DNA of 16,782 bases. It comes from Demequinaceae bacterium UBA4004. GTDB taxonomy: Bacteria > Actinomycetota > Actinomycetes > Actinomycetales > Demequinaceae. The stretch lies in contig DGBM01000083.1 of the NCBI GenBank assembly GCA_002384765.1, forward strand, positions 1 through 16,782, read 5' to 3'. The notes beneath the pieces were generated by a model. It saw only the letters and a program-made list of their open reading frames with translations. It searched no databases and had not been told where the DNA came from. Positions 1,998 through 16,782 of this stretch are shown here, piece after piece. Both the position numbers and the translations under genes were made by a program. Within the stretch, counting starts at the first letter, position 1. Each line of letters begins with the position of its first letter.

Positions 1998-2687
1998 TCA
2001 CGCTGGCGACGGGCTGGTGGGGTGCAGTTGGGCGTGCAGGCCCGTGAACAAAGTGTCCATGCCTCGCTCGAGTTCCGCTGCTCCGTCGTAGGCGGCCAGG
2101 ACGGATGCGAGGGCGCGAAGTCGAGGGAACTCGCGTAGCGGGAGCCGATGCAGACCCAGTCGGAGCAGATCGTCGGTCTCCTCGGGGTTCTCCACGATTT
2201 CCTGGAGTTCGTTCAGGACATGGCCCTGGATGAAGCCGAAGAACGAGCGGTACACGTGCAGAGCGTCGACCTCGGAGAATCCCGCGCGGATGAGCAGTTC
2301 GAGGATTGCTTCCAGAGGTCGCAAGGTGCCCAACGGCCGCATGGCGAGTGGAGTGCTCAGCGGTCGGGTGACCAGGAGCGGAATCACGTTGGGGTGGGCG
2401 AGCGCGAGGCCTCGGAACTGGCGGGCCACGGTGCGCAGTTGGGCCTCCCAGTCGCCGGAGGCGGTGTCGACGGTCAGTTCCGCGAGGACCGTTTCGGCGA
2501 CGCCATCGAGAAGCTCAGCCTTGGTGGTCGCGTGGCGGTAGAGCGACATCGGGTCGCGCCCAAGGGCGCGACCGAGCCTGCGCATGGACAGCCCCTCGAC
2601 ACCATCCTCATCGATGATCTCCAGAGCCGCGCGAAGGGTGGACTCCCGGGTCAGGGCGACGTTCTTTGGAGTAGTGCGGGGTGTCAC
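1998..2687 (-). CDS. TetR/AcrR-family transcriptional regulator with TetR_C_1-like ligand domain
   Basis: A DNA-binding repressor of 229 residues from the chosen start. The N-terminal helix-turn-helix is clear: ALEIIDEDGVEGLSMRRLGRALGRDPMSLYRHATTKAELLDGVAE, with the recognition helix around MSLYRHATTK. The remainder is a long helical C-terminal domain (HPNVIPLL, GFSEVDALHVYRSFFGFIQGHV) resembling the tetracycline-repressor type. The frame extends to a GTG at 2723. I prefer the GTG at 2685-2687 because GGAGG (minus strand, 2696-2700) stands 7-8 nt upstream, while 2723 has no ribosome binding site. It is divergent from the small membrane-protein genes at 2880 and 3132, and the intergenic region carries several palindromes, so control of these genes and of itself is likely. 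The ligand is unknown. Confidence 0.88.
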   Translation of the reverse strand: MTPRTTPKNVALTRESTLRAALEIIDEDGVEGLSMRRLGRALGRDPMSLYRHATTKAELLDGVAETVLAELTVDTASGDWEAQLRTVARQFRGLALAHPNVIPLLVTRPLSTPLAMRPLGTLRPLEAILELLIRAGFSEVDALHVYRSFFGFIQGHVLNELQEIVENPEETDDLLRLGLHRLPLREFPRLRALASVLAAYDGAAELERGMDTLFTGLHAQLHPTSPSPA

Positions 2688-2733
2688 CTTGAAATCCTCC
2701 ACTTTCACAGCGGCCTCATGCACGGGTTCTTGG

Positions 2734-3395: not shown

Positions 3396-3539
3396 CGGCG
3401 CCGTCGGGTGACCGTTCCGGCCGGGGGCTCGGGGACTTAGACTGGTTCGCGGATCTGACGCGTGGGCGTAGCAGCGGCCTTCCGCGCGCGTGCCGCGTGC
3501 CAGCTCGGGCCATCGGTTGCTACGGGGATTGTGAGGGAC

Positions 3540-4481
3540 ATGGACGTCCGACAACTAGAGTTCTTCCTCGCGGTGGTGGACGAGCGTAGCTTCACGAAAG
3601 CGGCCGAGACCGTGTTTGTCACGCAGTCGGGCTTGTCCGCGTCGATCCGCGCGCTTGAGCGAGAACTCGGGGTTCGGCTGTTTGACCGCGGTCCACAGGG
3701 CGCAACGCTCACCAGGACCGGCGAGGTGTTCTTTCCGCGGGCGCGGCGAATGCTCGCCGATGCTCGGGCGGCGCAACGGGAGCTGCTCGAGGTCTCCCAG
3801 CGGGAGGCCAGACTGGTCAGGGTGGGGTCCGAACAATGCGTGGGGGACCTCGTCGACCTCGTGGATCTCATGGCGGCATTCCGGATCGACGAACCGCAGG
3901 CGGAGATGTCCTTCGAGCAGTCCTCGACGGGAGCGCTCGTCGCGGGTCTGTCGGAAGACGACCTTGACATTGCGTTGATAGCCGGTCCGGTGGTGGGCGA
4001 ACCCTGGCAGAGGAGTTCGGGCTTCAGTTCGGTGGTACTGCGCCGCGAACCCTTTGTGCTCCTGACGCACCCTGGCCACCCCCTGGCCACCGAGCGATCC
4101 CTGGCCTGGCGGGACGTGGTCGGGCAGAAGTTTGTGGACTTCCAGCCGACGTGGGTGGTCAGACGAGTGCTTGACGCGGCGACGGAGGCGCGTGGGCTCA
4201 TCCGCCGGAGCGTCGTGACCGTGGATGACGTGCACATGCTCATCGACATGGTGCAACGCGACTTCGGTGTCGCGGCGCTGCCCGTGTCTCTGGCGCACAA
4301 AGAGTCCGCCTCAGGACTGGCAAAGGTCGAGTTGGTCGACGACGATCTGGGCTGGGAGATCAGGGTTGCGGTATCCGACCGAGCGGGCTCGACGGCGCGC
4401 GCCTTCGAAGCCATGCTGGTTCCGAGCGTGCTCGTGTCCGAGGTGCGCACCGAACTTTCGGCGGTGCCCCGAGCGTCATAG
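3540..4481 (+). CDS. LysR-family transcriptional regulator
   Basis: A 313-residue LysR-type regulator. The winged helix-turn-helix is at residues 1-62 (MDVRQLEFFLAVVDERSF, then AAETVFVTQSGLSASIRALE and LFDRGPQGATLT). A LysR substrate-binding domain follows from about residue 90, with DIALIAGPV, PFVLLTHPGHPLA and GVAALPVSLA segments typical of the family. The ATG at 3540 gives the normal LysR N-terminus; an in-frame GTG at 3531 is possible. A TAGACT at 3438-3443 could be a -10 box. It lies 85 bp upstream of the zinc alcohol dehydrogenase gene in the same direction, and a palindrome lies between them, so it may control that gene or itself. Its C-terminal half strongly resembles that of the second LysR at the right edge. 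The inducer is unknown. Confidence 0.92.
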   Translation: MDVRQLEFFLAVVDERSFTKAAETVFVTQSGLSASIRALERELGVRLFDRGPQGATLTRTGEVFFPRARRMLADARAAQRELLEVSQREARLVRVGSEQCVGDLVDLVDLMAAFRIDEPQAEMSFEQSSTGALVAGLSEDDLDIALIAGPVVGEPWQRSSGFSSVVLRREPFVLLTHPGHPLATERSLAWRDVVGQKFVDFQPTWVVRRVLDAATEARGLIRRSVVTVDDVHMLIDMVQRDFGVAALPVSLAHKESASGLAKVELVDDDLGWEIRVAVSDRAGSTARAFEAMLVPSVLVSEVRTELSAVPRAS

Positions 4482-4566: not shown

Positions 4567-5592
4567 ATGACAACGATGCGCGCAAACCTCCTGTTCACCC
4601 CGGCTCCCCTCGCAGAGCACCCGCTTGCATGGCAGGAGACCGACCGTCCCGAGCCCGCTGCCGGCCAACTCCTCATTAAGGTCGTGGCGTGTGGGGTGTG
4701 CCGGTCGAACCTTCACACCGTCGAGGGCGACTGGGTTGACGGCGGGGTGCCCGCCATCAGCCCGATCATCCCCGGGCACGAGGCCACGGGCCGGGTGGCC
4801 GGCATCGGCGAGGGAGTCACCGGTTTCAAGGTGGGCGACCCGGTGGGCGTCCAGCCCATCTGGTGGGCGTGTGGAACCTGCGAGTTCTGCGCCAGTGATC
4901 GGGAACAGCTGTGTCACGAACGCAAAGTTGCGGGCGAGCACGTGAACGGCGGTTACGGCGATTACATGGTGTCGTGGGCCGACTACACGTATCACGTTCC
5001 TGAGAGCCTCGACCTGGTCGACGCCGCTCCCCTCTTCTGCCCTGGAATCACGGCCTACGGAGTCATGGACAAGGTCGACGTGGGACCGGGCGACGTGGTG
5101 GCGCTCTTTGGCCTCGGCGGAGTGGGTCACATGGCTTTGCAGATGGCGCTCCTCACGGGCGCCGAGGTGGTGGCCGTCGGACGCAATGCAGCGCACCGTG
5201 ACGTCGCCACGGAACTGGGCGCCACGCGCGTCGTCGATTCCACGGACCCCGCAGCGATGGAGGCCATCGCGGACTCCGCCGACGTGGTGCTGACCTTTGC
5301 CGCCTCCGACGAGGTGACGGCGCAGGCGATGAACACGCTCAAGTGGGGTGGGACGTTGGTCAACGCCGTGCCGATCAATGTCGAAGAATTCCATTTCAAC
5401 CGGGCGCAGACGATCAAGGGCTCAATACTCGGCAACCGCGCTCAGATGCGGGCAGTGCTTGAACTTGCCGCGGCAGGCAAGATCCGCACCGTCGTCGAAC
5501 GCTTCCCGATGGAGCAGGCCGACGTGGCGCTCGGCAAGCTCGCCGCCGGTGAGTTGCGATCGCGCGCTGTGCTGTTCAACTCCGAGGCGTAA
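4567..5592 (+). CDS. Zinc-dependent medium-chain alcohol dehydrogenase
   Basis: A 341-residue medium-chain dehydrogenase/reductase. Catalytic zinc ligands are visible at Cys45 (in ACGVCRSNLH) and His71/Glu72 (PGHEATG). The four structural-zinc cysteines are Cys102, 105, 108 and 116 (ACGTCEFCASDREQLC). The nucleotide-binding motif GLGGVG is at 182-187; the second strand ends in VAVGRN with no acidic residue, which suggests NADP(H) preference. It oxidises an alcohol or reduces an aldehyde/ketone; the substrate is not evident. It follows a LysR gene and converges with deoR, overlapping its 3' end by 17 bp. Proximity to the sugar operon suggests a polyol or sugar-aldehyde redox step, but it may belong only to the LysR. 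The ATG at 4567 has almost no leader; an ATG at 4576 is an alternative start. Confidence 0.9.
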   Translation: MTTMRANLLFTPAPLAEHPLAWQETDRPEPAAGQLLIKVVACGVCRSNLHTVEGDWVDGGVPAISPIIPGHEATGRVAGIGEGVTGFKVGDPVGVQPIWWACGTCEFCASDREQLCHERKVAGEHVNGGYGDYMVSWADYTYHVPESLDLVDAAPLFCPGITAYGVMDKVDVGPGDVVALFGLGGVGHMALQMALLTGAEVVAVGRNAAHRDVATELGATRVVDSTDPAAMEAIADSADVVLTFAASDEVTAQAMNTLKWGGTLVNAVPINVEEFHFNRAQTIKGSILGNRAQMRAVLELAAAGKIRTVVERFPMEQADVALGKLAAGELRSRAVLFNSEA

Positions 5593-6346
5593 CGGCGGCC
5601 AAGGTCTCCTGCGAGCGGACCCTGATGAGAGGTATGGGGAACTGCGCCGCCCGCATGGGTTCGATGTAGTCGTCGGTGATTCCGGCACTGAAGGAGTCCA
5701 GATCGAAGACCTTGAAGAGTGCTTCCCTGCCAAACTTTGAGCTATCGGCAACGAAGAACGCTTCCGTGGCGACCGATCGCATCGTTCTCTTGATCTCGAG
5801 TTCGTAGCTCGACGTGTTGAAGACGCCGTTCTCCGTGACGGTGTCAGCACCGAACACGGCAACGTCGACGCGCAAGTTTTCGAGTTGCTGGATCGAGGTC
5901 GGACCCCACATCGTATATACATTCGGTAACAATTCTCCGCCGATGAAAACGAGGTGCGCGTTCTGCTTTTCGGCGATCGTGGCGCCCACGAGGAGGTCGT
6001 TGGTCACGACCGTAAGTTGCCGACCTCTGAGGTTGCGCGCCACCTCGAGGGTTGTCGAACCGCTGTCAAGCAGCACGGTCTGACCGTCCAGAATCCGATG
6101 AGCCATGGCCTTGCCGATGGCTTCCTTCTCGGGTCGGTGAAGTGACTGTTTGAGGTCAAAAGGAGCGTCTACCTGGCCCACTGGAAGCGCGCCGCCGTGG
6201 GTCCGCTGAACCAGGTCGCGCGCCTCCAACTCGGTCAGACTGCGCCGGATTGTCGACTCGGTGACGTCGAAGTGAGACGCCAGGTCGGACACGGAAGTGA
6301 ACCCTCGCTCAAGGAGCAACTCGACGATCTGTGCCTGTCGAGACAT
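5576..6346 (-). CDS. DeoR-family transcriptional repressor of sugar metabolism
   Basis: A 256-residue DeoR/GlpR-type regulator. The N-terminal helix-turn-helix spans residues 1-55 (MSRQAQIVELLLERGF, DLASHFDVTESTIRRSLTEL, LVQRTHGGALP). The C-terminal sensor domain has the sugar-phosphate pocket motifs LLDSGSTTLEVA and VVTND, then FIGGELLPN and AVFGADTV, ending with a KVFDLDSFSAGITDD segment. Family members usually repress sugar operons and are released by a phosphorylated intermediate. The ATG at 6346 is preceded by an excellent Shine-Dalgarno AAAGGAGG. It is transcribed divergently from the ABC transporter operon at 6545, its probable target. Its 3' end overlaps the convergent alcohol dehydrogenase gene by 17 bp. 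Confidence 0.93.
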   Translation of the reverse strand: MSRQAQIVELLLERGFTSVSDLASHFDVTESTIRRSLTELEARDLVQRTHGGALPVGQVDAPFDLKQSLHRPEKEAIGKAMAHRILDGQTVLLDSGSTTLEVARNLRGRQLTVVTNDLLVGATIAEKQNAHLVFIGGELLPNVYTMWGPTSIQQLENLRVDVAVFGADTVTENGVFNTSSYELEIKRTMRSVATEAFFVADSSKFGREALFKVFDLDSFSAGITDDYIEPMRAAQFPIPLIRVRSQETLAAVTPRS

Positions 6347-6378: not shown

Positions 6379-6421
6379 GCCGCCCGGCTGCGCGAAAACG
6401 AGCAGCAAAGTGAAGGAAAGC

Positions 6422-6436
6422 GCGCACTGGGTGCGC
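6422..6436. promoter_or_regulatory. Perfect palindrome in the deoR / ABC operon intergenic region (candidate DeoR operator)
   Basis: GCGCAC (6422-6427) and GTGCGC (6431-6436) flank TGG. The palindrome lies nine bases before the candidate -35 of the ABC operon and upstream of deoR, a suitable position for a shared operator. The neighbouring A-rich stretch (6392-6418) repeats GAAA/GAAG words, which some DeoR-family proteins also recognise, so the true site may be there. Confidence 0.45.
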
Positions 6437-6444
6437 AGTTGTGA

Positions 6445-6474
6445 TTGACAGCGGCGCAAACCCAGGCATATGGT
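6445..6474 (+). promoter_or_regulatory. Candidate promoter of the sugar ABC/catabolic operon
   Basis: TTGACA (6445-6450), a perfect -35, is followed after 18 bp by TATGGT (6469-6474) as -10. The predicted transcript would begin near 6481 and have a leader of about 65 nt before the binding-protein gene at 6545, whose ribosome binding site AAGGGAG is at 6531-6537. Confidence 0.6.
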
Positions 6475-6544: not shown

Positions 6545-7588
6545 ATGAAGCACAAGAAACTTTCCGGCGGACTGTTGGCCAGTGCCCTTGCCGTGACCCT
6601 CATCGGTTGCAGCTCGACAGCCGAGACGCCAACCACGTCAGCCACCACCGGCACCACGAGCGCTGGCGGCGGAGACGGCGCGTACGTGGTCATCGTGAAG
6701 GCGACCGGCATCGGTTGGTTTGACCGCATGGAAGTCGGCGTCAAGGAATGGGGCGCAGAAAACGGCCTTGACGCACGTGAAGAGGGACCTGCAGAGGCGA
6801 CGAATGAGGGTCAGGTCGCCATCATTCAGAATCTGATCGCACAGAAGCCAGTCGCCATCGGCATCGTTCCCAATGACCTTGAGGGTCTCGCGGCCGTGGC
6901 TCAGCAGGCACGCGACGCGGGAATCATCGTGGTGGGTCACGAAGCAGCCGGCATGAAGAACATCGACATTGACATTGAAGGCTTCGAGAACCGTGCCTAC
7001 GGTGCGCAGATCATGGAGAACCTTGGCCAGTGCACCGGTGGTACCGGCAAGTACGTCCAGTTCGTCGGGCGACTGACCAACGGATCTCACATGGACTGGG
7101 TGGGCGGCGCTTACGACAAGCAGCAGGCCGACTTCCCGGACATGACTCGCGTGGAAGACCCCATCGAGTCGGAGGAGAACGAGGAAACGGCCTACAACAA
7201 GGCCAAGGAGATCCTCGCGAAGTACCCGGACATCGCGGCATTTGAGGGCTCGGCGGGCACCGACGTCGTCGGTATCGCGCGTGCGGTCGACGAGGCCGGT
7301 AAGGCCGACTCGGTGTGCGTCATGGGCACCTCGATTCCCTCCGTTGCCGGAAGCTACCTCGAAAGCGGAGCAATCGACAAGATCTTCTTCTGGGACCCGG
7401 CCATGGCCGGCAAGGCACAGTTGGAGATCGGCCGCATCCTCGCCGAGGGCGGCACCGTTGAAGAAGGCACGAACCTGGGAATCCCTGGCTACGAGTCCCT
7501 CGTGAAGCTTGAGGGCTACGACAACGTGTTCGCCGGCAACGCCGGTGTCGCGGTTGACCTCAGCAACGTCGGCGACTACAACTTCTAA
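6545..7588 (+). CDS. Sugar ABC transporter substrate-binding lipoprotein, LsrB/RhaS-like
   Basis: A 347-residue periplasmic-binding-protein type 1 (Peripla_BP_4 fold) lipoprotein. Residues 1-22 are a lipoprotein signal with lipobox LIGC; Cys22 would be lipidated. A Ser/Thr/Gly-rich linker (23-45) follows. The mature domain has GIGWFDRMEVGVKEWG, IIQNLIAQKPVAIGIVPND and the closing NVGDYNF. The order of segments (GIGWF, EGPAE, WDPAMAG, NVGDYNF) resembles LsrB (AI-2) and RhaS (rhamnose) rather than RbsB. It captures the substrate outside the cell and delivers it to the two permeases encoded downstream. It is the first gene of the operon and is followed by a strong hairpin, which probably allows its higher expression. 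The ligand is unknown. Confidence 0.92.
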   Translation: MKHKKLSGGLLASALAVTLIGCSSTAETPTTSATTGTTSAGGGDGAYVVIVKATGIGWFDRMEVGVKEWGAENGLDAREEGPAEATNEGQVAIIQNLIAQKPVAIGIVPNDLEGLAAVAQQARDAGIIVVGHEAAGMKNIDIDIEGFENRAYGAQIMENLGQCTGGTGKYVQFVGRLTNGSHMDWVGGAYDKQQADFPDMTRVEDPIESEENEETAYNKAKEILAKYPDIAAFEGSAGTDVVGIARAVDEAGKADSVCVMGTSIPSVAGSYLESGAIDKIFFWDPAMAGKAQLEIGRILAEGGTVEEGTNLGIPGYESLVKLEGYDNVFAGNAGVAVDLSNVGDYNF

Positions 7589-7612
7589 GTCGCTCGACTC
7601 CTTCACACACCA

Positions 7613-7656
7613 TTCCCGGGTGGGTTGGACCCTCATCGGTCCGGCCCACCCGGGAA
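7613..7656 (+). terminator. Long intra-operon hairpin between binding-protein and ATPase genes
   Basis: TTCCCGGGTGGG (7613-7624) pairs perfectly with CCCACCCGGGAA (7645-7656). Inside, TT/GG can form two wobble pairs and GGACC (7627-7631) pairs with GGTCC (7638-7642). The result is a nearly continuous 19-bp stem with a 6-nt loop. No T-run follows. Such hairpins after binding-protein genes commonly protect the upstream mRNA 3' end or cause partial termination, giving more binding protein than membrane components. Confidence 0.75.
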
Positions 7657-7684
7657 CTTGGAAGCACTAGGGATGTAGCAAACC

Positions 7685-9184
7685 ATGACAGTGGTCGCCG
7701 AACCCGTCCTCGAGGTCCACAACATTGTGAAGACTTACGGCGGAGTCCATGCCCTGAAGAGCGTGTCGATTTCGCTACTCCCGGGTGAAGTGCACTGCCT
7801 CGCCGGAGAAAACGGGAGCGGAAAGTCAACGCTGATCAAGATCATCAGCGGCGTCGAGCGACCAGACTCCGGGAGCATCTCGATCGGCGGCAGTCGGCGA
7901 TCACATCTCACGCCCAATGAGGCGATTCGCAGCGGAGTCCAGGTGATCTACCAGGACTTCTCCTTGTTTCCGAACCTCACCGCCGCCGAGAACATTGCCA
8001 TGCTCAGCGAACTCGCGGAGCGGCGGAGGTTCTCCTCCCGCAAGCGAATCTATGCGGAGGCCGACCGGATCGTCAGAGAACTGGGCTTGAAGATCGATCT
8101 GGGCGCGGAGGTCGAGAGCCTGTCGGTGGCCGACCGCCAGCTTGTGGCAATCTGCCGAGCCCTCGTCGGCGACGCCAAGGTGCTCATCATGGATGAACCC
8201 ACCACGGCCCTGACCCATACCGAGGTTGACCGGCTCTTCACGATCGTGCGCAGGCTCCAGGAGCGCGGCGTTGCGGTGATGTTCGTCAGCCACAAGTTAG
8301 ACGAGGTGCTCCAGATCGCTCAGCGCCTCACCATTCTTCGTAACGGTGAACTTGTCGAAACCGGCCCAGCGTCGGATTACACCGGGCGCAGCGTCGCCAA
8401 AGCGATGACCGGCCGAGAGGTGTCGGAAGACAGGCTCGTCGCGCCGGTCGACAAGGACGCCGCACTCCTGCTTGATGTGAAGAACCTGACGCGGTCCGGC
8501 GACTTCCACCACATCGACCTGCAGCTCCGCGTCGGCGAGATTCTGGGCATTACGGGGCTGCTGGGTTCGGGACGATCAGAGATCGCCGAGGCGATATTCG
8601 GCATTCGACCCGCCCACAGCGGCGAAGTGATCGTCGCGGGGCAGTCTCACAAGATCGACTCGATCCGCGACGCGGTGAGGGCCGGAATCGGCTACGTGCC
8701 CGAGGATCGGCTGACGCAGGGTCTCTTTCTTGACGCCTCCATTGCGGACAACATGGTCGCATCGTCCCTGGACTCCTATCGCACAAAGTTCGGCCTGCTC
8801 AACCGCAAGCGGATTCGGGACTCGATCGCAGACCTGTTCAAGCGCCTGCGCATTCAGGCACCGAACGTCGCCGCCGTCGTGCATAGCCTCTCGGGTGGCA
8901 ACGCCCAACGCGTCGTGCTCGCCAAGTGGCTTGACCGGAAGCCGACCATCCTCGTCCTCAACGGACCAACGGTGGGCGTCGACATCGGATCGAAGGAAGA
9001 GATCCTCACGATCCTGCGCGAACAGGCCGCCGCCGGGATGGGCATCATCGTGATCTCGGACGACATTCCGGAACTCGTCTCCAGTTGTCATCGGGTACTG
9101 ATCGTTCACGAGGGACGCATCGTGTCCGAGTTCGTCGGTGAAGACATCAATGCGAACGAGATTCACAAGAGGATGGCGGCATGA
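7685..9184 (+). CDS. Sugar ABC transporter ATP-binding protein (RbsA/LsrA-type, two ABC domains)
   Basis: A 499-residue fused double ABC ATPase that powers import. The N-terminal domain is canonical: Walker A GENGSGKST (41-49), Q-loop IYQDFSLF, signature LSVADRQ (146-152), Walker B LIMDEPTT with Asp170/Glu171, and H-loop VSHK. The C-terminal domain has a degenerate Walker A (LGSGRSE, 293-299), as usual for this family, and signature LSGGN (402-406). However, the Walker B/catalytic acidic pair is replaced: LNGPT at 425-429 instead of LDEPT. Domain two should therefore bind but hardly hydrolyse ATP. I believe related sugar ATPases share this variant, but cannot check. The gene overlaps the next permease gene by four bases (ATGA), indicating translational coupling. 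The ribosome binding site before the ATG is weak. Confidence 0.95.
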   Translation: MTVVAEPVLEVHNIVKTYGGVHALKSVSISLLPGEVHCLAGENGSGKSTLIKIISGVERPDSGSISIGGSRRSHLTPNEAIRSGVQVIYQDFSLFPNLTAAENIAMLSELAERRRFSSRKRIYAEADRIVRELGLKIDLGAEVESLSVADRQLVAICRALVGDAKVLIMDEPTTALTHTEVDRLFTIVRRLQERGVAVMFVSHKLDEVLQIAQRLTILRNGELVETGPASDYTGRSVAKAMTGREVSEDRLVAPVDKDAALLLDVKNLTRSGDFHHIDLQLRVGEILGITGLLGSGRSEIAEAIFGIRPAHSGEVIVAGQSHKIDSIRDAVRAGIGYVPEDRLTQGLFLDASIADNMVASSLDSYRTKFGLLNRKRIRDSIADLFKRLRIQAPNVAAVVHSLSGGNAQRVVLAKWLDRKPTILVLNGPTVGVDIGSKEEILTILREQAAAGMGIIVISDDIPELVSSCHRVLIVHEGRIVSEFVGEDINANEIHKRMAA

Positions 9185-10200
9185 GGACTGCACTGGGGCG
9201 ATTGCGCGGCGCCAACAACGAAGGACTTCTTGTCGCGGTCATCATCGTGGTGGCGGTGGCGATGTCCATCGCGTCGCCAGCGTTCCTTACGCCCGGCACA
9301 TTTTTTGCGCTGGTGCGCAGCTCGATGGTGCCGCTCGTCTTCGCGCTCGGCGTGCTGCTCGTCATGATCTCCGGTGGCATTGACGTCTCGTTCCCCGCCA
9401 TTGCCATCTTCGCGGCGTACACCACGGTGAGATGGGCCAAGGATGGCAACCTTGATCCGGGACTCGTGCTGATCTTTGTCATTGCCATGGTCGTGGGTGG
9501 GTTGCTTGGCCTGTTCAACGGCGTGGTGATCGCGCGGTTCAGGCTGCCGACCCTGATCGTGACTCTCGGCACTCAAACCATCTACAAGGGCGTTCTGCTC
9601 ACCTACATCGGCTCGCTGTATATTTCCGCGAGCGAGCTGCCCAAGTCGATCACCAGGCTCTCAGATGTTCACCTCTGGGATGTTCCGGGCGGCGGCTACC
9701 TGCACTTCATGATTATCCCGGTGGTGCTGGTGGCGGTGTTCATCGCCTGGATGCTGAGGTGGACGATGTTCGGCCGCAGCATCTACGCCATCGGCGGCGA
9801 CGCAGAGGCGGCGCGGCGCGTCGGCATCCGTGTGGTCAGGACGCAAGTCTGGCTCTACACCCTCGTGGGCGCCCTCGCGGCCCTCGGCGGGGTGGTGTTC
9901 GTGATCCTCGGCAAGAATGCAAATCCTCAGGCGATCGTCGGTACCGAACTCGACATCATCGCGGCCGTGGTGCTCGGAGGGGCATCGATCTTCGGTGGCC
10001 GCGGCTCCGTGGTCGGCACCGTGCTGGGCGTCGTTCTCGTCCAACTCATCAACAACAACCTCGTGCTGGTGGGAATCCCCAGCACATGGCAGAGGGCCGC
10101 GGTCGGGATGTTGCTGCTGCTCGGCGTCACTGCTCAAGCACTCGGCCGTACTCGCGCGCGAAAACGCCCGGTCATCGTGCAGAAGGAGGTTGAGGCATGA
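9181..10200 (+). CDS. Sugar ABC transporter permease 1 (RbsC family)
   Basis: A 339-residue inner-membrane permease of the BPD_transp_2 (RbsC/LsrC/RhaP) family. Several hydrophobic segments are clear, starting with LLVAVIIVVAVAMSIASPAF (about 16-35). The family motif MISGGIDVSFPAIA is present, as is the later ARRVGIRV...GGASIFGGRGSVVGT region that contacts the ATPase. It forms the translocation channel together with the next gene product. It overlaps the ATPase gene by four bases and the next permease gene by four bases, so three transporter genes are translated in coupled fashion. Predicted length and topology (about 8-10 helices) are normal. Confidence 0.93.
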   Translation: MRTALGRLRGANNEGLLVAVIIVVAVAMSIASPAFLTPGTFFALVRSSMVPLVFALGVLLVMISGGIDVSFPAIAIFAAYTTVRWAKDGNLDPGLVLIFVIAMVVGGLLGLFNGVVIARFRLPTLIVTLGTQTIYKGVLLTYIGSLYISASELPKSITRLSDVHLWDVPGGGYLHFMIIPVVLVAVFIAWMLRWTMFGRSIYAIGGDAEAARRVGIRVVRTQVWLYTLVGALAALGGVVFVILGKNANPQAIVGTELDIIAAVVLGGASIFGGRGSVVGTVLGVVLVQLINNNLVLVGIPSTWQRAAVGMLLLLGVTAQALGRTRARKRPVIVQKEVEA

Positions 10201-11294
10201 GCGATCCGTCACGCGGCTCCCTGAGTCAGATCAATCAGCGAGTCGAGACAGCGTACAACGCGGCCATTGCCCGAATCCACGTGCAACGGGGTGTGGGTCG
10301 CATGGCCCTGCTGCTCGTCGCGACCTTCGTCCTGTTCGCGGCCCTGAACCCCGGCGTCTTCCTCAGCGAGGTCAACCTTCAGAACATCGGCCTGGTCGCG
10401 CCGGAGATCGGCCTTCTCTCACTCGCCGTCATGATGGCGATGCTGACTGGCGGCATCGACTTGTCGGTGGTGGCGATCGCCAATGCCACGGCCATTACCG
10501 TGTCTTCCCTCTACACGTCCGTGCTGAACTCACAGGGCCAGGGGGCGGCGGACTCGATGACGCCCCTGATTCTGCTCGCCGGGGTGGCGGTGGGCGTTGC
10601 CTTGGGTGCGATCAATGGAGTGCTCGTGAGCGTGGTGGGAATCACTCCGATCCTCGTGACCCTCGGCACGATGCAGCTCTACAACGGCCTGGCGCTGGTG
10701 TGGACCGGCGGCGTCACCATTTCGGGCGCTCCGGGCGGGCTGACCTCGATGGGATCGACGGCGATACTCGGCGTTCCCGTGCTGTTGCTGATTCTGATCG
10801 TGGCCGCCGTCGCGATCGCCGTCCTCATCAACCGCACGGCCATCGGCCGAAAGATCGCCCTGCAGGGTGCCAACCCGGTGGCGAGCAAGTACTCGGGCAT
10901 CAGCGCGCGATCGACCCTGATGATGACCTACATCACCAGCGGCCTGCTCTCCGCGGTGGCAGGTCTGGTGTTCCTCAGCCGGAGCCCGTCAGCGAGCGCC
11001 GACTATGGCTCAAGCTACGTGCTGTTGGTGATTGTGATCGTGGTGCTTGGCGGCACGAACCCCAACGGCGGGTTCGCGACGGTGCTCGGTGTGGTGCTCG
11101 CAACGCTCACACTCCAAGTGCTCTCCAGCGGATTTACGGCCATGAGGTTGTCGGCCTATGAGTACGCGATCGCTCAGGGCCTCATCTTGGTGGGCGTGAT
11201 GGTCCTTGATCAAGTGAAAATCAAAACGAGGAAGCGACGACCGAGCACCGATGGTGAAAAGCAGGACGCCGTGGCCGAAGCAACAACAAAGTGA
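10197..11294 (+). CDS. Sugar ABC transporter permease 2 (RbsC family)
   Basis: A 365-residue BPD_transp_2 permease, partner of the preceding one. The cytoplasmic N-terminus (about residues 1-33) is hydrophilic. Hydrophobic segments begin with MALLLVATFVLFAAL, and the family motif LTGGIDLSVVAIA is present. The GVLVSVVGITPILVTLGTM segment and ALQGANPVASKYSGI cytoplasmic loop are typical of the family, as is VLGGTNPNGGFATVLG. The C-terminus is a basic/acidic tail (KIKTRKRRPST...). The start overlaps the previous stop (ATGA). Two different permeases beside a single double ATPase imply a heterodimeric channel, as in LsrC/LsrD or RhaP/RhaQ. Confidence 0.93.
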   Translation: MSDPSRGSLSQINQRVETAYNAAIARIHVQRGVGRMALLLVATFVLFAALNPGVFLSEVNLQNIGLVAPEIGLLSLAVMMAMLTGGIDLSVVAIANATAITVSSLYTSVLNSQGQGAADSMTPLILLAGVAVGVALGAINGVLVSVVGITPILVTLGTMQLYNGLALVWTGGVTISGAPGGLTSMGSTAILGVPVLLLILIVAAVAIAVLINRTAIGRKIALQGANPVASKYSGISARSTLMMTYITSGLLSAVAGLVFLSRSPSASADYGSSYVLLVIVIVVLGGTNPNGGFATVLGVVLATLTLQVLSSGFTAMRLSAYEYAIAQGLILVGVMVLDQVKIKTRKRRPSTDGEKQDAVAEATTK

Positions 11295-11306
11295 ACGGAT
11301 AAGACC

Positions 11307-12308
11307 ATGAAGAAGATCATCAACAACCCGGATAGCTTCGTCGACGAGTTTGTCGAGGGGATTCTGCTGGCTCACCCCGACCTCGTGAAGACGCCAGGGG
11401 ACGACATCCGGGTTCTGGTCCGGGCCGACGCTCCGCTGGACGGCAAGGTCGGCATCGTCACCGGCGGTGGGTCGGGACACCTGCCGCTGTTCAAGGGCTA
11501 CGTCGGCAAGGGCCTGTGTTCTGGGGTGGCAATCGGCAACGTCTTCAGCTCGCCAAGCTCCGACCAGATCTTCCAGGCAACCAAGGCCGTCAATGGCGGT
11601 GCCGGAGTGCTGTACCTCTACGGAAACTATGGCGGCGACGTCTTCAACTTCGACCTTGCGGTCGACCTGGCCGAACTCGAGGACATTGACACCAAGACCG
11701 TGCTGGGTCGCGACGACGTCGCAAGCCAGCCCCACGAGCGCAAACTCGATCGGCGCGGTGTTGCCGGGATCTTCTTTGCCTACAAGACCGCTGGGGCAGC
11801 CGCCGAGAGAGGCGACTCCCTCGAGCAGGTCGCCGCCATCGCGGAGGACACCGTCGAGCACACGGCAACCATCGGCATCGGACTCGCTCCGACCATCCTT
11901 CCGACCACGGGAAAGCCAAGCTTCGAGCTTCCCGAGGGTGAGATGGAGTTCGGGATTGGCATCCACGGGGAGCCGGGAACGCGGCGCGGCGCCCTCGAGA
12001 CGGCCGACGAGATCGCCGAACACCTCACCTCGGCGCTCGTCGATGACCTGGGACTGGGTGAGGGTTCGCGAGTCGCGGTGCTGGTCAACGGGATGGGGGC
12101 AACGCCTCTCGAGGAGCTTTACGTGCTCTATCGCAAGACCCACACGTTCCTGGCTGAACGCGGAATTGAGGTCGCAAAGAACTATGTGGGCGAATATGCG
12201 ACCAGCCTCGAAATGGCAGGCGCGTCCATCTCCATCTTGGATCTGAATGATGACCGACTGGAGTTGCTCAACGCGCCCGCCCAGTCGCCGTTCTTTCGAG
12301 AGGGCTGA
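11307..12308 (+). CDS. dhaK: Dihydroxyacetone kinase family, DhaK-like subunit
   Basis: A 333-residue DAK1-domain protein that binds a short ketose or aldose covalently and orients it for phosphorylation. Family residues are conserved: GGGSGHLP with His58 (substrate-binding His56 of E. coli DhaK), NYGGDVFNF with Asp111 (Asp109), DDVASQ, and FGIGIHGEPG with His220 (His218, the hemiaminal-forming histidine). Length is near the usual 330-356. The DhaL-like partner gene follows after 6 bp. There is no DhaM-like phosphotransferase gene in the window. Some DAK-family kinases act on erythrulose or other C4 ketoses rather than dihydroxyacetone, so the substrate may be a tetrose-type sugar or a triose released by cleavage. 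The symbol denotes family only. Confidence 0.92.
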   Translation: MKKIINNPDSFVDEFVEGILLAHPDLVKTPGDDIRVLVRADAPLDGKVGIVTGGGSGHLPLFKGYVGKGLCSGVAIGNVFSSPSSDQIFQATKAVNGGAGVLYLYGNYGGDVFNFDLAVDLAELEDIDTKTVLGRDDVASQPHERKLDRRGVAGIFFAYKTAGAAAERGDSLEQVAAIAEDTVEHTATIGIGLAPTILPTTGKPSFELPEGEMEFGIGIHGEPGTRRGALETADEIAEHLTSALVDDLGLGEGSRVAVLVNGMGATPLEELYVLYRKTHTFLAERGIEVAKNYVGEYATSLEMAGASISILDLNDDRLELLNAPAQSPFFREG

Positions 12309-12314
12309 TCCGCC

Positions 12315-12938
12315 ATGGAAAGCAAGGAACTCAAGGACCGCATCTGTCGAAGTCTCACCATCCTGATCGAGTCTTCCGATGAACTGCGCGACCTCGACCA
12401 GGCGCTTGGCGACGGCGACCTCGGAATCACGATCACGGCGGGTTCGCGCGCGGTGATCGCGGCGCTCGAGGAGTTGCCGGACGACACCACGCCGACCGAG
12501 ATTGCCCGTACCTGCGCCAAGGCCTTCGCCAACGCCAATCCGTCGACGATGGCGGCCTTGGTCGCAGGCGCGCTCTTGTCCGGCTCCCGGGTCTGGGAGG
12601 GCCAGCGCAACATCGGCGTTGCGGAGGCGGCCAAGTTCACCAAGGCCGCCGCCGACAGCATCGCGCAACGAGGCAAGACCCAGGTGGGCGACAAGACGAT
12701 CCTCGATGGAATCGCCGCGGCGTCGGACGCACTGGAATCCGCCACCGATCCCGGCGAGGCGACGGAGGCCGCGAAGGCAGCGGCGGCTCGCGCGGTGCGG
12801 GACACCACCTCATTGCAGTCTCGGAGGGGCCGTGCGTCATGGTTGCAGGAACGAAGCATCGGACTCGCCGATCCTGGGGCCACGGCGTTCCAGAGGTTCG
12901 TCGAGGCGTGGGCGGCGGCCGGCGTCACCAAGGACTGA
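12315..12938 (+). CDS. dhaL: Dihydroxyacetone kinase family, DhaL-like nucleotide-binding subunit
   Basis: A 207-residue DAK2-domain protein. The Mg-nucleotide binding aspartates are present in LDQALGDGDLG (Asp28, Asp33, Asp35; compare Asp30/35/37 of E. coli DhaL). The second family motif GKTQVGDKTILD is at about 120-131, and SLQSRRGRASWLQERSIGLADPGA gives the typical C-terminal region. It supplies the phosphoryl group to the substrate held by the DhaK-like subunit. PTS-type DhaL keeps bound ADP that DhaM recharges; no DhaM is encoded here and the transporter is ABC-type, so direct use of ATP with nucleotide exchange is more likely, though a DhaM elsewhere cannot be excluded. It is encoded 6 bp after dhaK, clearly co-transcribed. 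Confidence 0.92.
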   Translation: MESKELKDRICRSLTILIESSDELRDLDQALGDGDLGITITAGSRAVIAALEELPDDTTPTEIARTCAKAFANANPSTMAALVAGALLSGSRVWEGQRNIGVAEAAKFTKAAADSIAQRGKTQVGDKTILDGIAAASDALESATDPGEATEAAKAAAARAVRDTTSLQSRRGRASWLQERSIGLADPGATAFQRFVEAWAAAGVTKD

Positions 12939-12972
12939 ACACACCACTTCAACGACGAATGGGATACCGCTC

Positions 12973-13779
12973 ATGACAACCTGGCTCGACGACGTCTTCG
13001 ACGTACGCAAACCGATCATCGGAATGTGTCATCTGCCTGCTCTGCCCGGCGACCCCGGGTATGACGCCGCGGGAGGAATGGCCCGGATTCTCGCCCATGG
13101 GCGTCAAGAGATCACAGCACTTCAGGACGGCGGCATCGACGGCATTCTCATTTCGAATGAGTTCAGCCTTCCCTACCTGACGGAGACGGAGCCGATCACT
13201 GCGATCTCCATGGCGAGGGTCATCGGTGAACTCCGAGCGGAACTGACCGTCCCGTTTGGTGTCAATGTGCTGTGGGACGGGGTGGCCTCGATCGATCTCG
13301 CGATCGCGACGGGAGCCTCGTTCGTGCGGGAGGTGTTCACCGGCGTCTACGCATCTGACTTCGGTCTGTGGAATACCGATGTCGGGCGGGCGGCGCGGCA
13401 TCGCGCCAAGGTTTCGGCCAAGGACGTCAAACTGCTCTACAACATCGTGCCGGAGGCCGCCACGTACCTCGGCGGCCGGGATCTTGGACAGATGACGCGG
13501 TCAACGGTGTTCAACGGCGTTCCCGACGGCCTGTGTGTCTCGGGGTTGACCGCCGGTGCGGCCACCGACACCCCCACCCTCAAGATGGTGAAGGAGAACG
13601 CGGGCGACACCCCTGTCTTCGTCAATACCGGTGTGAGGCCGGATACCGTCGTGGAGAGCCTCAAGTACGCGGATGGGGCGATCGTGGGCACCTGGTTCAA
13701 GCGTGACGGCAAGTTCGAGAACGACGCGGAGTCGGCTCGAGTCGCCGAGCTCATGGAAGCGGTGAGGACGGTTCGATAA
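12973..13779 (+). CDS. BtpA/SgcQ-family TIM-barrel protein
   Basis: A 268-residue cytoplasmic protein of the BtpA/SgcQ family. Supporting segments are PIIGMCHLPALPGDPGY near the N-terminus, GIDGILISNEFSLPY, VPFGVNVLWD, GASFVREVFTGVYASDFG, GLCVSGLTAGAATD and VFVNTGVRPDTV, ending in IVGTWFKRDGKFEN; their alternating strands and helices fit a (beta/alpha)8 barrel. Cyanobacterial BtpA was linked to photosystem I accumulation, and E. coli SgcQ lies in an uncharacterised sugar operon; the enzymatic reaction is not established. Between the two kinase systems here, an isomerase, epimerase or aldolase-like step on a sugar phosphate is plausible but inferred. The ATG at 12973 follows GGGA at moderate spacing. 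The stop overlaps the next start (TAATG). Confidence 0.85.
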   Translation: MTTWLDDVFDVRKPIIGMCHLPALPGDPGYDAAGGMARILAHGRQEITALQDGGIDGILISNEFSLPYLTETEPITAISMARVIGELRAELTVPFGVNVLWDGVASIDLAIATGASFVREVFTGVYASDFGLWNTDVGRAARHRAKVSAKDVKLLYNIVPEAATYLGGRDLGQMTRSTVFNGVPDGLCVSGLTAGAATDTPTLKMVKENAGDTPVFVNTGVRPDTVVESLKYADGAIVGTWFKRDGKFENDAESARVAELMEAVRTVR

Positions 13780-15275
13780 TGTCCTTCATCGGCATCGACG
13801 TCGGCACCTTTGAGAGCAAGGGTGTGCTGGTCGATGCCGAGGGCGAGGTGCTGGCGATGGCTCGCCGTCGCCACGGCCTGTCCACTCCCCGACCCGGCCA
13901 TGTTGAACACGATCCGGAATCGGATTGGTGGGCAGGAGTCGCGGCCATCTCGAGAGAGTTGATGGCTCACCCCGAGGCGCGCCACGTCCGGGCCGTAGGG
14001 GTCAGCGCCATTGGCCCCTGCGTGGTCGCGACCGACGCCGGACTGGTGCCGCTGAGACCAGCGATCCTGTACGGCGTCGATACTCGCGCGACCCGGCAGG
14101 GCGAGGCGCTGACGGCGACGCTGGGCGCCGATGAGGTGTTTCGTCGCGGCGGGAATCCGCTCACCAGCCAGTCTGCAGGACCCAAGATCGCCTGGCTCAA
14201 AGATGAGGAGCCCGAGGTCTGGCGGGCCGCTCGGTGGTTCATGACGAGCCAGTCGTGGATCGTCGCAAGGCTCACCGGGGAGGTGGTCATCGATCACGGT
14301 ACCGCCGGTTACTTCCACCCGCTATACGACCTTGGAGAGAAGCGCTGGGACCTGACCGGCTGCGAGGGCTTCATCGACGAGGAACGCCTGCCGCGCCTGG
14401 CCTGGAGCACAGAGGTGGCCGGTCATATTCACGCAGGGGCCGCGGCGGCAACGGGTCTGCCCGCGGGAACTCCCGTCATCGTCGGCACCACAGACTCACC
14501 CGCTGAGGCGGTTGGCGCTGGGGTGATCTCTGACGGCGCGCTCATGGCGCAGTACGGGTCTACCGGGTACTTCATCCGGGTCAGCACCACGCCCATCACT
14601 CACCAAGACCTGTGGGCGGCGCCCTTCGTTTTCGAGGACACCTACGTGCTCGCCGCCGGCACCGCCACGCTCGGGACTGCGACACGGTGGATCTCGGATG
14701 TGCTCGACATCACGGACGCGGAGGACGACGTCACGTTCGGGCGGCTCTTGGCGTTGGCCGCCGACTCGCCTCCGGGAGCCCGTGGCGTCCTGGCGGTGCC
14801 GCACTTCTCCGGCGAGCGGACGCCCTTCCAGGATCCGCACAGCCGTGGCGCACTCATCGGCCTTGGGCTTGGGCACTCGCGTGCGGACATTGCCCGCGCC
14901 GTGCTCGAGGGTCTGGGGCACTCGGTGGCCGAGGCGCTGCTGACCTATGGGCGGGCCGGGGTTTCGATCGACCGGGTGATAGCGATAGGTGGCGCGACCC
15001 AGAATGACGTGATGATGAGCACCGTCTCGACGGTGACGGGGCTCGACCAGCACGTGACGGTTTCCCCCGGGGCCGCTTTTGGCGACGCCTTCCTCGCGGC
15101 CGTGGGCGTGGGCACGATCTCCGACCCGTCTGCTCCTGATGGCTGGCGGCACTCACGCCGCACGATCAGTCCAAATCCGGACGATGCCGCTCAACTACGC
15201 GCCGACCACGAGGACTTTGTCGCGGCGTACCGTGCCCTGGCGCCGATCCATCGCGGCCGGTTTAGCGATGACTGA
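13779..15275 (+). CDS. FGGY-family carbohydrate kinase
   Basis: A 498-residue two-domain sugar kinase (xylulokinase/rhamnulokinase/erythritol kinase superfamily). The N-terminal phosphate-1 motif is GIDVGTFESKGVL. The catalytic base is Asp239 in VIVGTTDSPAEA, and the adenosine motif is near AIGGATQNDVM with GAAFGDAFLAAVG close to the C-terminus. Length is normal. It phosphorylates a sugar or polyol with ATP; specificity cannot be read from the motifs. Start and upstream stop share one base (TAATG), with GAGGA upstream, so it is translationally coupled to the BtpA-like gene. A second kinase system (DhaK/DhaL) in the same operon suggests two separate phosphorylation steps. Confidence 0.94.
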   Translation: MSFIGIDVGTFESKGVLVDAEGEVLAMARRRHGLSTPRPGHVEHDPESDWWAGVAAISRELMAHPEARHVRAVGVSAIGPCVVATDAGLVPLRPAILYGVDTRATRQGEALTATLGADEVFRRGGNPLTSQSAGPKIAWLKDEEPEVWRAARWFMTSQSWIVARLTGEVVIDHGTAGYFHPLYDLGEKRWDLTGCEGFIDEERLPRLAWSTEVAGHIHAGAAAATGLPAGTPVIVGTTDSPAEAVGAGVISDGALMAQYGSTGYFIRVSTTPITHQDLWAAPFVFEDTYVLAAGTATLGTATRWISDVLDITDAEDDVTFGRLLALAADSPPGARGVLAVPHFSGERTPFQDPHSRGALIGLGLGHSRADIARAVLEGLGHSVAEALLTYGRAGVSIDRVIAIGGATQNDVMMSTVSTVTGLDQHVTVSPGAAFGDAFLAAVGVGTISDPSAPDGWRHSRRTISPNPDDAAQLRADHEDFVAAYRALAPIHRGRFSDD

Positions 15276-15287
15276 AACGGGACTGTG

Positions 15288-16400
15288 ATGCAGGGAATTG
15301 ACTGGGATGAGATCGTCCGACTCGTTGCCGATGGCGTTGAGATGTCCGCGGGCGACCGCGTGTCAGTGTTCGTGACGGACGTCTCGGTCATGGATGCGGC
15401 AGCCGCCCTCGTCGAAGAGGGGTGGCGGCGCGGCGCGGTGGTGCAGGTCATCGCGACGGACGAGCGCTTTGACGCGAGCGCCCTGAGATGGGCCCAGCCC
15501 GACACCCTTGCGCAGGCGCCGGCGCTCGAGGCGGCGGCGATGGAGTGGTCCAATGTCCACGTCTCGTTTCGAGCGATGGTGAACCCGGTTGTCGACGCCG
15601 ACCCGGAGCGCATCGCCGCCCTGCGTCACGGTCGCGGAATCGTGTCGACCATGCGGTGGAAGGGCACCAGATGGGCCCTGGTGCGCGTCCCCACCCCCGC
15701 GTGGGCGCAGGCCATGTCCCTCGATCCCGGTGAGTTGATGGCGGAGTGGTCGGCGTCCTTCGACGCGAACTGGCCCGAAGCGGCAAGCAGGATGCAGGTC
15801 CTGTGTGACAGGTTCGCCTCGGCCCGCACTGCGGTCATCGAGGACGAGTGGGGCACGCTTGAGCTCGGTGTGGAGGGGCGGACCTGGGTGCCGTTCTCGG
15901 GCAAGGCGAACTGGCCCGATGGCGAGATCGCCACGGCGCCGGTCGAAGACGACATCTCCGGGCGCATTCGCTTTCCCGGCGTGTTCTCCTTTGGCGGCGT
16001 GAAGGTGGAGGATCTCGAGTTCGAGTTCGAGGGCGGACTGATTGTGAAGGAGAACGCGGCCGACGGTCTCGCGTTTGTGCGCAAACTCCTTGATGGAGAC
16101 AAAGGCGCGCGTCGCGTCGGCGAACTTGGCGTGGGCACAAACTCCGCCTTGAAGCAGATGACGGGAGACCTGCTGATCGACGAGAAGATCCTCGGCACCG
16201 TCCACATCGCTCTCGGTCGCGCCTACCCAGAATGCGGTGGCGTCAACTCTTCCGCGCTGCATTGGGACATCGTGAAGGACCTGCGCGGTACCGGCGGCGC
16301 CCCTCAGGGTTCGTTCCGCATGGACGACGAGTGGCTCATCCGCGACGGAGTGGTGCAGCCGGTGTTGAGCGAGGTCGCGGTTCCACGCTCGTCTCGTTGA
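15288..16400 (+). CDS. M29-type metallo-aminopeptidase homologue
   Basis: A 370-residue protein of the thermophilic aminopeptidase (AmpS/AmpT, peptidase M29) family. The family signatures with probable metal ligands are conserved: NWPDGEIATAPVED (Glu213), GELGVGTN (Glu279), TVHIALGRAYPECGG (His306, Tyr313) and SALHWDIVKDLR (His325, Asp327). It should therefore be a cytoplasmic enzyme with a two-metal site that removes N-terminal residues from peptides or hydrolyses a related amide. It is the last operon gene, 12 bp after the FGGY kinase gene; the ATG at 15288 (or GTG at 15285) is the start. A peptidase is unexpected in a sugar operon and may act on an amino-sugar or amino-acyl conjugate; this is inference. 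The gene ends 13 bp before the convergent lysR fragment. Confidence 0.88.
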   Translation: MQGIDWDEIVRLVADGVEMSAGDRVSVFVTDVSVMDAAAALVEEGWRRGAVVQVIATDERFDASALRWAQPDTLAQAPALEAAAMEWSNVHVSFRAMVNPVVDADPERIAALRHGRGIVSTMRWKGTRWALVRVPTPAWAQAMSLDPGELMAEWSASFDANWPEAASRMQVLCDRFASARTAVIEDEWGTLELGVEGRTWVPFSGKANWPDGEIATAPVEDDISGRIRFPGVFSFGGVKVEDLEFEFEGGLIVKENAADGLAFVRKLLDGDKGARRVGELGVGTNSALKQMTGDLLIDEKILGTVHIALGRAYPECGGVNSSALHWDIVKDLRGTGGAPQGSFRMDDEWLIRDGVVQPVLSEVAVPRSSR

Positions 16401-16413
16401 CGCGGCCCCGCTC

Positions 16414-16782
16414 CTAGCCCGCCGACGCTGGGATCGCTGCGTCAGCGCGGACCACCACAGCCCCGCGACAAGCGGGCGCATCGGCCAGCAGTTCCATCAG
16501 GTGCGGGGCCGCCGAATCGGACCCGGCCTTGCGGGATTGCACCACGGACACCTCCCACCGGGGGGCGTCGTGCGGCAGGGGGACCGTGACCAGCCGCGCG
16601 GCCTGCGGCTTGTTGGACACGTGGCGCGGCACGATCGCGACGCCCAAGCCGCGGTCTACGAACTCGAGCAGCGTGTGGACGTCGCTGACCTGGAACCGCA
16701 CGCGGCGCATCATCCCGCGCGACTCACACGCCGCATCGGTCAGCGGCCGTACGCCCCAGGTGGGGTCGAAGTCCACGTGATC
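16414..16782 (-). CDS. LysR-family regulator, C-terminal part (5' end outside window)
   Basis: The frame is open to the right edge, so only the last 123 residues are visible. They match the end of a LysR substrate-binding domain: VDFDPTWGVRPLTDAACESRG, SDVHTLLEFVDRGLGVAIVPR and a final helix HLMELLADAP. It is strikingly parallel to the LysR at 3540-4481 (VDFQPTWVVRRVLDAATEARG, DDVHMLIDMVQRDFGVAALP), so the two belong to the same subfamily. It converges with the M29-type gene, with only 13 bp between the stops and no evident terminator. Target and inducer are unknown. Confidence 0.88.
   Translation of the reverse strand, partial: DHVDFDPTWGVRPLTDAACESRGMMRRVRFQVSDVHTLLEFVDRGLGVAIVPRHVSNKPQAARLVTVPLPHDAPRWEVSVVQSRKAGSDSAAPHLMELLADAPACRGAVVVRADAAIPASAG

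Follow-up and report, generated by a model that had tools for sequence, protein, structure and literature searches.

A conserved nine-gene operon around a BtpA/SgcQ barrel in a Demequinaceae bacterium and its relation to the sgc genes of Escherichia coli

The sgcABCEQX genes of Escherichia coli include a gene for the BtpA homologue SgcQ and one for the hydrolase SgcX (PMC13343008). In its accessible part, that 2026 study reports that sgc is induced on poor carbon sources containing nitrogen, that its mutants are not impaired in growth, a result that extends to 190 Biolog carbon sources, and that the substrate and functions are not established (PMC13343008); the accessible part of a 2017 paper calls sgc a phosphotransferase system (PTS) for an unknown sugar (PMC5797941). 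Here we describe a locus in Demequinaceae bacterium UBA4004 (contig DGBM01000083.1; the whole stretch analysed, 16,782 nucleotides, is called the window), where nine plus-strand genes at 6545-16400 encode an ATP-binding cassette (ABC) importer, a DhaK/DhaL pair (DhaKL), a BtpA/SgcQ barrel, an FGGY-family kinase and an M29-type metallohydrolase. In both the window and sgc of E. coli K-12 (sgcXBCQAER), a BtpA/SgcQ barrel and a zinc-hydrolase-like protein are encoded in a sugar-uptake operon. The window differs in that an ABC importer and an FGGY kinase take the place of the PTS, M29 takes the place of M42 (the family to which we take SgcX to belong), ribulose-phosphate 3-epimerase (RPE) is missing and DhaKL is added. 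Neither PTS EII components nor RPE were detected among the scanned window proteins, and the M42 hydrolase by which an sgc-type operon might be recognized is likewise replaced, by M29.

The rhizobial rhamnose operon (rhaSTPQ-rhaK) and the lsr operons share with the window the class of importer, an FGGY kinase and a sugar-responsive regulator. In contrast to these operons, isomerase/mutarotase, LsrF and LsrG are not among the nine window genes by Pfam, and the binding protein and kinase score far below the curated cut-offs. The binding protein of the RhaS/LsrB-like group (6545-7588; Peripla_BP_4) reaches 86.5 bits with the RhaS model (TIGR02637, cut-off 342.25) and 84.8 bits with LsrB (cut-off 384), its nearest solved chain being 5bra (241.8 bits). 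Among isolates, its closest homologue is that of Actinotalea fermentans (L001). The ATPase (7685-9184; ABC_tran) scores 420 bits with LsrA (cut-off 586), and two permeases (9181-10200 and 10197-11294; both BPD_transp_2) complete the importer. The xylulokinase-like FGGY kinase (13779-15275; FGGY_N/C) reaches 265.2 bits with XylB (TIGR01312, cut-off 380.25) and 114.6 bits with the autoinducer-2 (AI-2) kinase model (cut-off 528). Uptake and breakdown of an AI-2 type signal, analogous to lsr, would explain why the importer proteins and the kinase have lsr-like relatives. However, every lsr equivalog cut-off is missed, homologues of the two Lsr enzymes are absent as stated, and few AI-2 contact positions seem to be kept in a suggestive alignment to SmLsrB. 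We regard this reading as very improbable.

A first-pass annotation, made from the letters of the window, had recognized no described pathway with this exact set of genes. No description of the set was found in the literature searched either, subscription papers being outside the scope, and the accessible part of an FGGY family survey does not mention this context (PMC3245297).

A conserved operon and its control region

Pfam families of the nine proteins were called at gathering cut-offs; every open reading frame is present on the plus strand and each protein exceeds the cut-off of the family claimed for it. Downstream of the importer lie the genes for the DhaK-type kinase subunit (11307-12308; Dak1, 384.5 bits), the DhaL-type subunit (12315-12938; Dak2), the (beta-alpha)8 barrel (12973-13779; BtpA, PF03437), the FGGY kinase and the M29-type metallohydrolase (15285-16400; Peptidase_M29). 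Consecutive genes are separated by 96, -4, -4, 12, 6, 34, -1 and 9 bases, so that overlaps or very short gaps, as the first-pass annotation described them, hold for most junctions but not for the 96 bases after the binding-protein gene or the 34 bases before btpA. The range assigned to the operon covers nine real genes but omits a probable member, a zinc-dependent alcohol dehydrogenase (ADH) gene discussed below.

We compared the window with 80 BtpA loci, the best 80 of at least 583 confirmed matches to the BtpA alignment and thus its nearer relatives, counting gene families at 40 bits or more. The nine genes occur in the same order on one strand in 11 of the 80 (L001-L005, L007, L008, L016, L019, L026, L033), and because of this recurrence the arrangement is not due to chance. 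Between dhaL and btpA, six of the 11 have no gene and five have one, which encodes a protein resembling 3-hydroxyisobutyrate/tartronate-semialdehyde reductases in L008, L016, L019 and L026 (the L008 copy is under every NCBIfam cut-off shown) and an opposite-strand DeoR-like protein in L033. The window contains a real, conserved catabolic operon that is co-inherited as one unit. Its nine genes probably serve the uptake and breakdown of a compound that is probably sugar-like.

Across the 80 loci, FGGY was counted in 58, M29 in 38, the importer binding protein in 29, short-chain dehydrogenase/reductase (SDR) in 22, DhaL in 15, zinc-dependent ADH in 13, M42 in 10, RPE in nine and the PTS component EIIC-GAT in seven. 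FGGY is present in all 38 M29 loci, which supports a recurring association of the barrel with both the FGGY kinase and the M29 protein. For the larger set that includes DhaKL, the nine-gene order does recur, but the full set is a minority form: in a class sample of 246 Actinomycetes, BtpA was above cut-off in 14 genomes, only one of which (G002) has the complete set with DhaKL. Two genomes (G134, G031) combine BtpA, M42, importer and DhaKL. The association is real, but the full set represents one of several versions.

The divergent DeoR-family regulator reported by the first-pass annotation lies at 5576-6346 on the minus strand (DeoRC and HTH_DeoR); its gene starts with ATG at 6346, with AAAGGAGGT just upstream. 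The control region at 6420-6474 (plus strand) contains the inverted repeat GCGCAC-TGG-GTGCGC, a candidate operator, and similar TGCGCG/CGCGCA palindromes are visible in several of six aligned upstream regions. The single promoter candidate noted earlier was recovered as TTGACA-18-TATGGT at 6445-6474 (0.2 expected over the 1.5 kb scanned), with TTGAC identical in all six upstream regions. As part of the overall explanation given below, and with the same middling confidence, we propose that the operon is under DeoR control.

Probable phosphate supply, barrel and hydrolase

The PTS-type BtpA loci resemble sgc, with EIIC-GAT and RPE in 7 of 7 and M42 in 5 of 7. FGGY occurs in none of these seven loci and in 58 of the 73 others (p 5e-5), whereas RPE is found in all seven and in 2 of the 73. 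The 10 M42 loci, five of PTS type and five with FGGY, carry no M29 gene in the fetched stretch; among the 48 loci having either peptidase, both occur on one contig in one (p 0.015). Several points weigh against a simple rule of substitution. The p-values ignore kinship among loci; the contig of L064 runs on into an M29 gene and so holds both peptidases, which weakens the contrast to the value given; and in 54 loci with ample flank, both peptidases are missing in 20 and both FGGY and PTS in eight. Since FGGY and PTS share none of the 80 loci, we conclude that the FGGY kinase probably supplies the phosphate that the PTS supplies in sgc-type loci, and that the barrel probably acts on a phosphorylated sugar. 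We read the kinase with the ABC importer, or the PTS, as alternative deliveries of phosphorylated sugar to the barrel, with a metal-dependent peptidase-like hydrolase as a frequent partner.

The barrel protein belongs to the BtpA/SgcQ family (TIGR00259, 286.3 bits, cut-off 153.4; PF03437, 276.3 bits, cut-off 30). The fold neighbours of its AlphaFold2 model (pLDDT 89.9) are phosphate-binding barrels, among them HisF, PcrB/GGGPS, hexulose-phosphate synthase and KDPGal aldolase. Residues E63, N98, R119 and N157 of the barrel are identical in all 32 rows of its alignment. The first-pass suggestion that one kinase primes the sugar and the barrel acts next fits both this fold and the exclusion of FGGY and PTS permease. 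In the literature and databases searched, no reaction is assigned to BtpA/SgcQ. Cyanobacterial BtpA, which functions in photosystem I biogenesis, is of the same Pfam family, but the window barrel stands in a context of sugar uptake, not photosynthesis, and reaches 160.1 bits with the photosystem I biogenesis model (NF045918, cut-off 400). Another kind of BtpA operon was seen in Rhizobium tumorigenes (L160) and Pantoea dispersa (L161), where distant BtpA genes are accompanied by a ribokinase/PfkB kinase, a phosphotriesterase and a glutamine amidotransferase; the Rhizobium locus also encodes an annotated zinc-dependent hydrolase, and the Pantoea locus a hydrolase of M20/ArgE-DapE type and TenA.

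A Demequina sp. entry matches the M29 protein with 99% identity, in keeping with a Demequina-like source of the window, and the protein has the fold and metal-ligand set of its family. With ligands assigned by alignment to AmpT/AmpS, which stops before H326/D328, and from what is known of the family, they are invariant in 35 of 35 aligned rows. Identity to the aminopeptidases PepS, AmpS and AmpT and to the dioxygenase NicX is about 20%, and the window protein is about 40 residues shorter than PepS. Seven genomes yielded members of the close subfamily (above 400 bits, profile A2), namely G002, G045, G209, G010, G011, G549 and G595, and in every one of them BtpA is encoded on the contig that carries the M29 gene. 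Above 500 bits the subfamily occurs in 3 of the 246 sampled Actinomycetes, all with BtpA about 1.5 kb away, although G045 and G209 among these three also harbour L022 and L013 and supplied sequences for the M29 profile. Separately, short M29-like proteins are numerous in Chloroflexota; in the 27 loci L129-L155 they score 295-326 bits, and no BtpA was seen within the short stretches examined.

The ADH gene (4567-5592, plus strand; ADH_N and ADH_zinc_N) is convergent with deoR and AdhP/Ahr-like; its top NCBIfam match, adh_fam_2, scores 212.7 bits, under the cut-off of 283.5. Used as query, the protein finds homologues of 499-609 bits in L001, L002, L003 and L005 (76% identity to that of L001), adjoining deoR in the first three and lying downstream of the M29 gene in L005; none was detected at L004. 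Homologues of 334-372 bits lie beside DhaKL in two loci with BtpA, M42 and DhaKL (L204, L205). The ADH is probably a member of the operon system. In a polyol route, the ADH would oxidize an imported pentitol or tetritol to a ketose; FGGY or DhaKL would phosphorylate this ketose, and BtpA would epimerize or isomerize it into the pentose phosphate pathway. The ADH and SDR counts in the 80 loci and the galactitol-family EIIC and RPE of the PTS-type loci are in line with such chemistry, and for sgc, too, the accessible part of the 2026 E. coli atlas proposes a chemistry of pentitols (PMC13343008). However, this route leaves M29 and M42 without a role, and the ADH reaches 64.4 bits with the galactitol-1-phosphate dehydrogenase model (cut-off 550), being closer to AdhP/Ahr. 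We consider it unlikely.

Our preferred explanation, held with moderate confidence, is a DeoR-controlled operon for the import and degradation of a small compound of the sugar, polyol or sugar-amide type. This compound would enter through the ABC importer, and the M29 protein, with its metal-ligand set intact, would probably hydrolyse one of its bonds, an amide or aminoacyl-type link being the likeliest. Phosphorylation of the sugar, the role of the PTS in sgc-type relatives, would fall to the FGGY kinase, and the barrel would then isomerize or cleave the sugar phosphate. The ADH may handle an alcohol or aldehyde end, and DhaK/DhaL may act as a specialized, probably ATP-using ketose kinase that occurs mainly in actinobacterial versions. 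What the comparison shows is which genes are present, how they are ordered, how far they are conserved and with which others they occur; the individual reactions, their sequence and the class of substrate are inferred.

Other genes of the window were also recorded. At 6-920 (plus) lies a mannitol/polyol dehydrogenase gene (Mannitol_dh_C and part of Mannitol_dh) whose N-terminal part is absent or cut by the window start. An IS4/5-family transposase-like fragment at 1239-1772 (minus), perhaps a decayed insertion element, overlaps short frames and scores 32.3 bits with DUF4096 (cut-off 34.3). A TetR-type regulator is encoded at 1998-2723 (minus), a LysR-type regulator at 3537-4481 (plus), directly upstream of the ADH; at 16414-16776 (minus), the end of the window truncates another LysR substrate-binding domain.

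A DhaK/DhaL pair with altered motifs

The operon DhaK and DhaL are of the same families as those of PTS-dependent DhaKLM, and fall short of the equivalog models (DhaK1, 387.1 bits, cut-off 406.25; DhaL, 123 bits, cut-off 138.3). In an alignment, DhaK has GHLPLFKGYVG in place of the canonical GHEP-type motif. The window operon has no DhaM, and its DhaL differs from that of DhaKLM in having GDGDLG for GDxDHG and NPSTMAAL for GGxxGPL, while the three Asp of the GDxD region align with the DhaKLM counterpart. The loop is NPSTM in 14 of the 15 DhaL loci and VPSTM in the other; 14 of the 15 are actinobacterial, the remaining one (L073) being from Mycoplasmatota with dhaKL on the opposite strand. In contrast, GDxDHG and GGAxGPL are found in all four DhaL proteins taken from the neighbourhood of an EIIA-man gene. 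Of the 17 related draft genomes searched, 7 gave no match to EIIA-man (DhaM), and all seven have operon DhaKL; in G006, G007 and G015, where EIIA-man is present, it adjoins another DhaL. Because of the altered loops and the genomes without an EIIA-man match, the operon DhaKL is probably not PTS-driven. Within the operon the pair is an add-on, and it belongs to a separate subfamily marked by the altered DhaL loop.

The distribution of this subfamily bears on what the pair may do. The importer binding protein accompanies DhaL in 15 of 15 loci, and DhaL is absent from 14 of 29 importer loci. Genome G164 has a DeoR-importer-DhaKL arrangement and no BtpA match, an Alloyangia plasmid combines importer and DhaKL with a different FGGY, and Caballeronia has a GntR-MtnK-MtnA-class II aldolase-ABC-DhaKL operon. 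Since DhaKL always occurs with the importer in the 80 loci, and elsewhere without the barrel, it is unlikely to be a required step following the barrel.

The first-pass annotation had assigned DhaK/DhaL the rescue of a released dihydroxyacetone-like product. In that model, FGGY would prime a ketose, BtpA would cleave it to a phosphorylated aldehyde and free dihydroxyacetone or tetrulose, and DhaKL would phosphorylate the free ketone. FGGY, barrel and DhaKL do share one operon, and aldolases are among the fold neighbours of the barrel. Operon DhaKL is absent, however, from 22 of the 38 M29 loci, all of which have BtpA and FGGY (in one of them, L041, a separate Dak gene lies 6 kb away on the opposite strand). 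Dak1 is encoded elsewhere in 17 of these 22 genomes, as a rescue would allow, but had no match anywhere in the other five (L006, L017, L048, L051, L063); two of these (L048, L063) are possibly incomplete metagenome bins, and the five include isolates of Pedococcus, Streptosporangium and Bifidobacterium. The occurrence of the same DhaKL subfamily in G164 and Caballeronia, and a DhaL loop unlike that of DhaL beside EIIA-man genes, also speak against it. As a general rule the rescue step is not supported, and because of the loci without operon DhaKL, the genomes without Dak1 and the DhaKL copies without BtpA we rate it low: as an account of the window, the model is doubtful. Overall, the pathway suggested by the first-pass annotation is supported in part.

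The Caballeronia operon points to a further alternative, the salvage of a deoxy sugar as in the 5-deoxyribose pathway, in which a deoxypentose would be split to a C3 phosphate and a small aldehyde reduced by the ADH. The most similar DhaK in the plasmid collection (66-68%) is the Caballeronia copy, and relatives of the binding protein adjoin ribokinase at three loci, with DeoC also nearby in two of them. However, MtnK, MtnA and class II aldolase are not among the window operon genes by Pfam, and the published pathway, in the accessible part of its description, yields dihydroxyacetone phosphate directly and does not name DhaKL (PMC6079011). We consider this salvage quite unlikely. NPST-type DhaKL was also seen with an MtnK homologue in G173 (L207) and on the Caballeronia plasmids L200 and L210, which add MtnA, class II aldolase and an ABC importer.

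Meaning for the sgc problem

We speculate, well short of our confidence in the preferred explanation, that BtpA/SgcQ proteins and interchangeable metal-dependent amide hydrolases form an undescribed class of pathway for sugar-amino-acid or amide-linked sugar conjugates. The hydrolase would unblock the conjugate, a kinase or PTS would phosphorylate the sugar and the barrel would break the phosphorylated sugar; sgc would represent the version that relies on a PTS, and the NPSTM-type DhaKL would have a novel specificity as a kinase. This tentative proposal, probably not correct in full, groups M29 here with M42 in sgc-type loci and annotated M20 or PIG-L hydrolases in some proteobacterial loci. 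The induction of sgc on nitrogen-containing carbon sources, as given in the accessible part of the E. coli study, fits it without proving it (PMC13343008).

The main value of the operon lies in its link to the sgc problem. In its relatives, the same barrel is accompanied by different kinases or transporters and different peptidase look-alikes, in some cases in an arrangement resembling sgc, and the comparison gives a testable rule for sgc, in that FGGY and an ABC importer replace the PTS and M29 replaces M42. Kinase assays have a further, independent target in the DhaKL subfamily with the altered loop. Unlike a PTS, the window importer brings a binding protein that is open to direct ligand screening, and its ligand, once found, could point to the substrate class of sgc.

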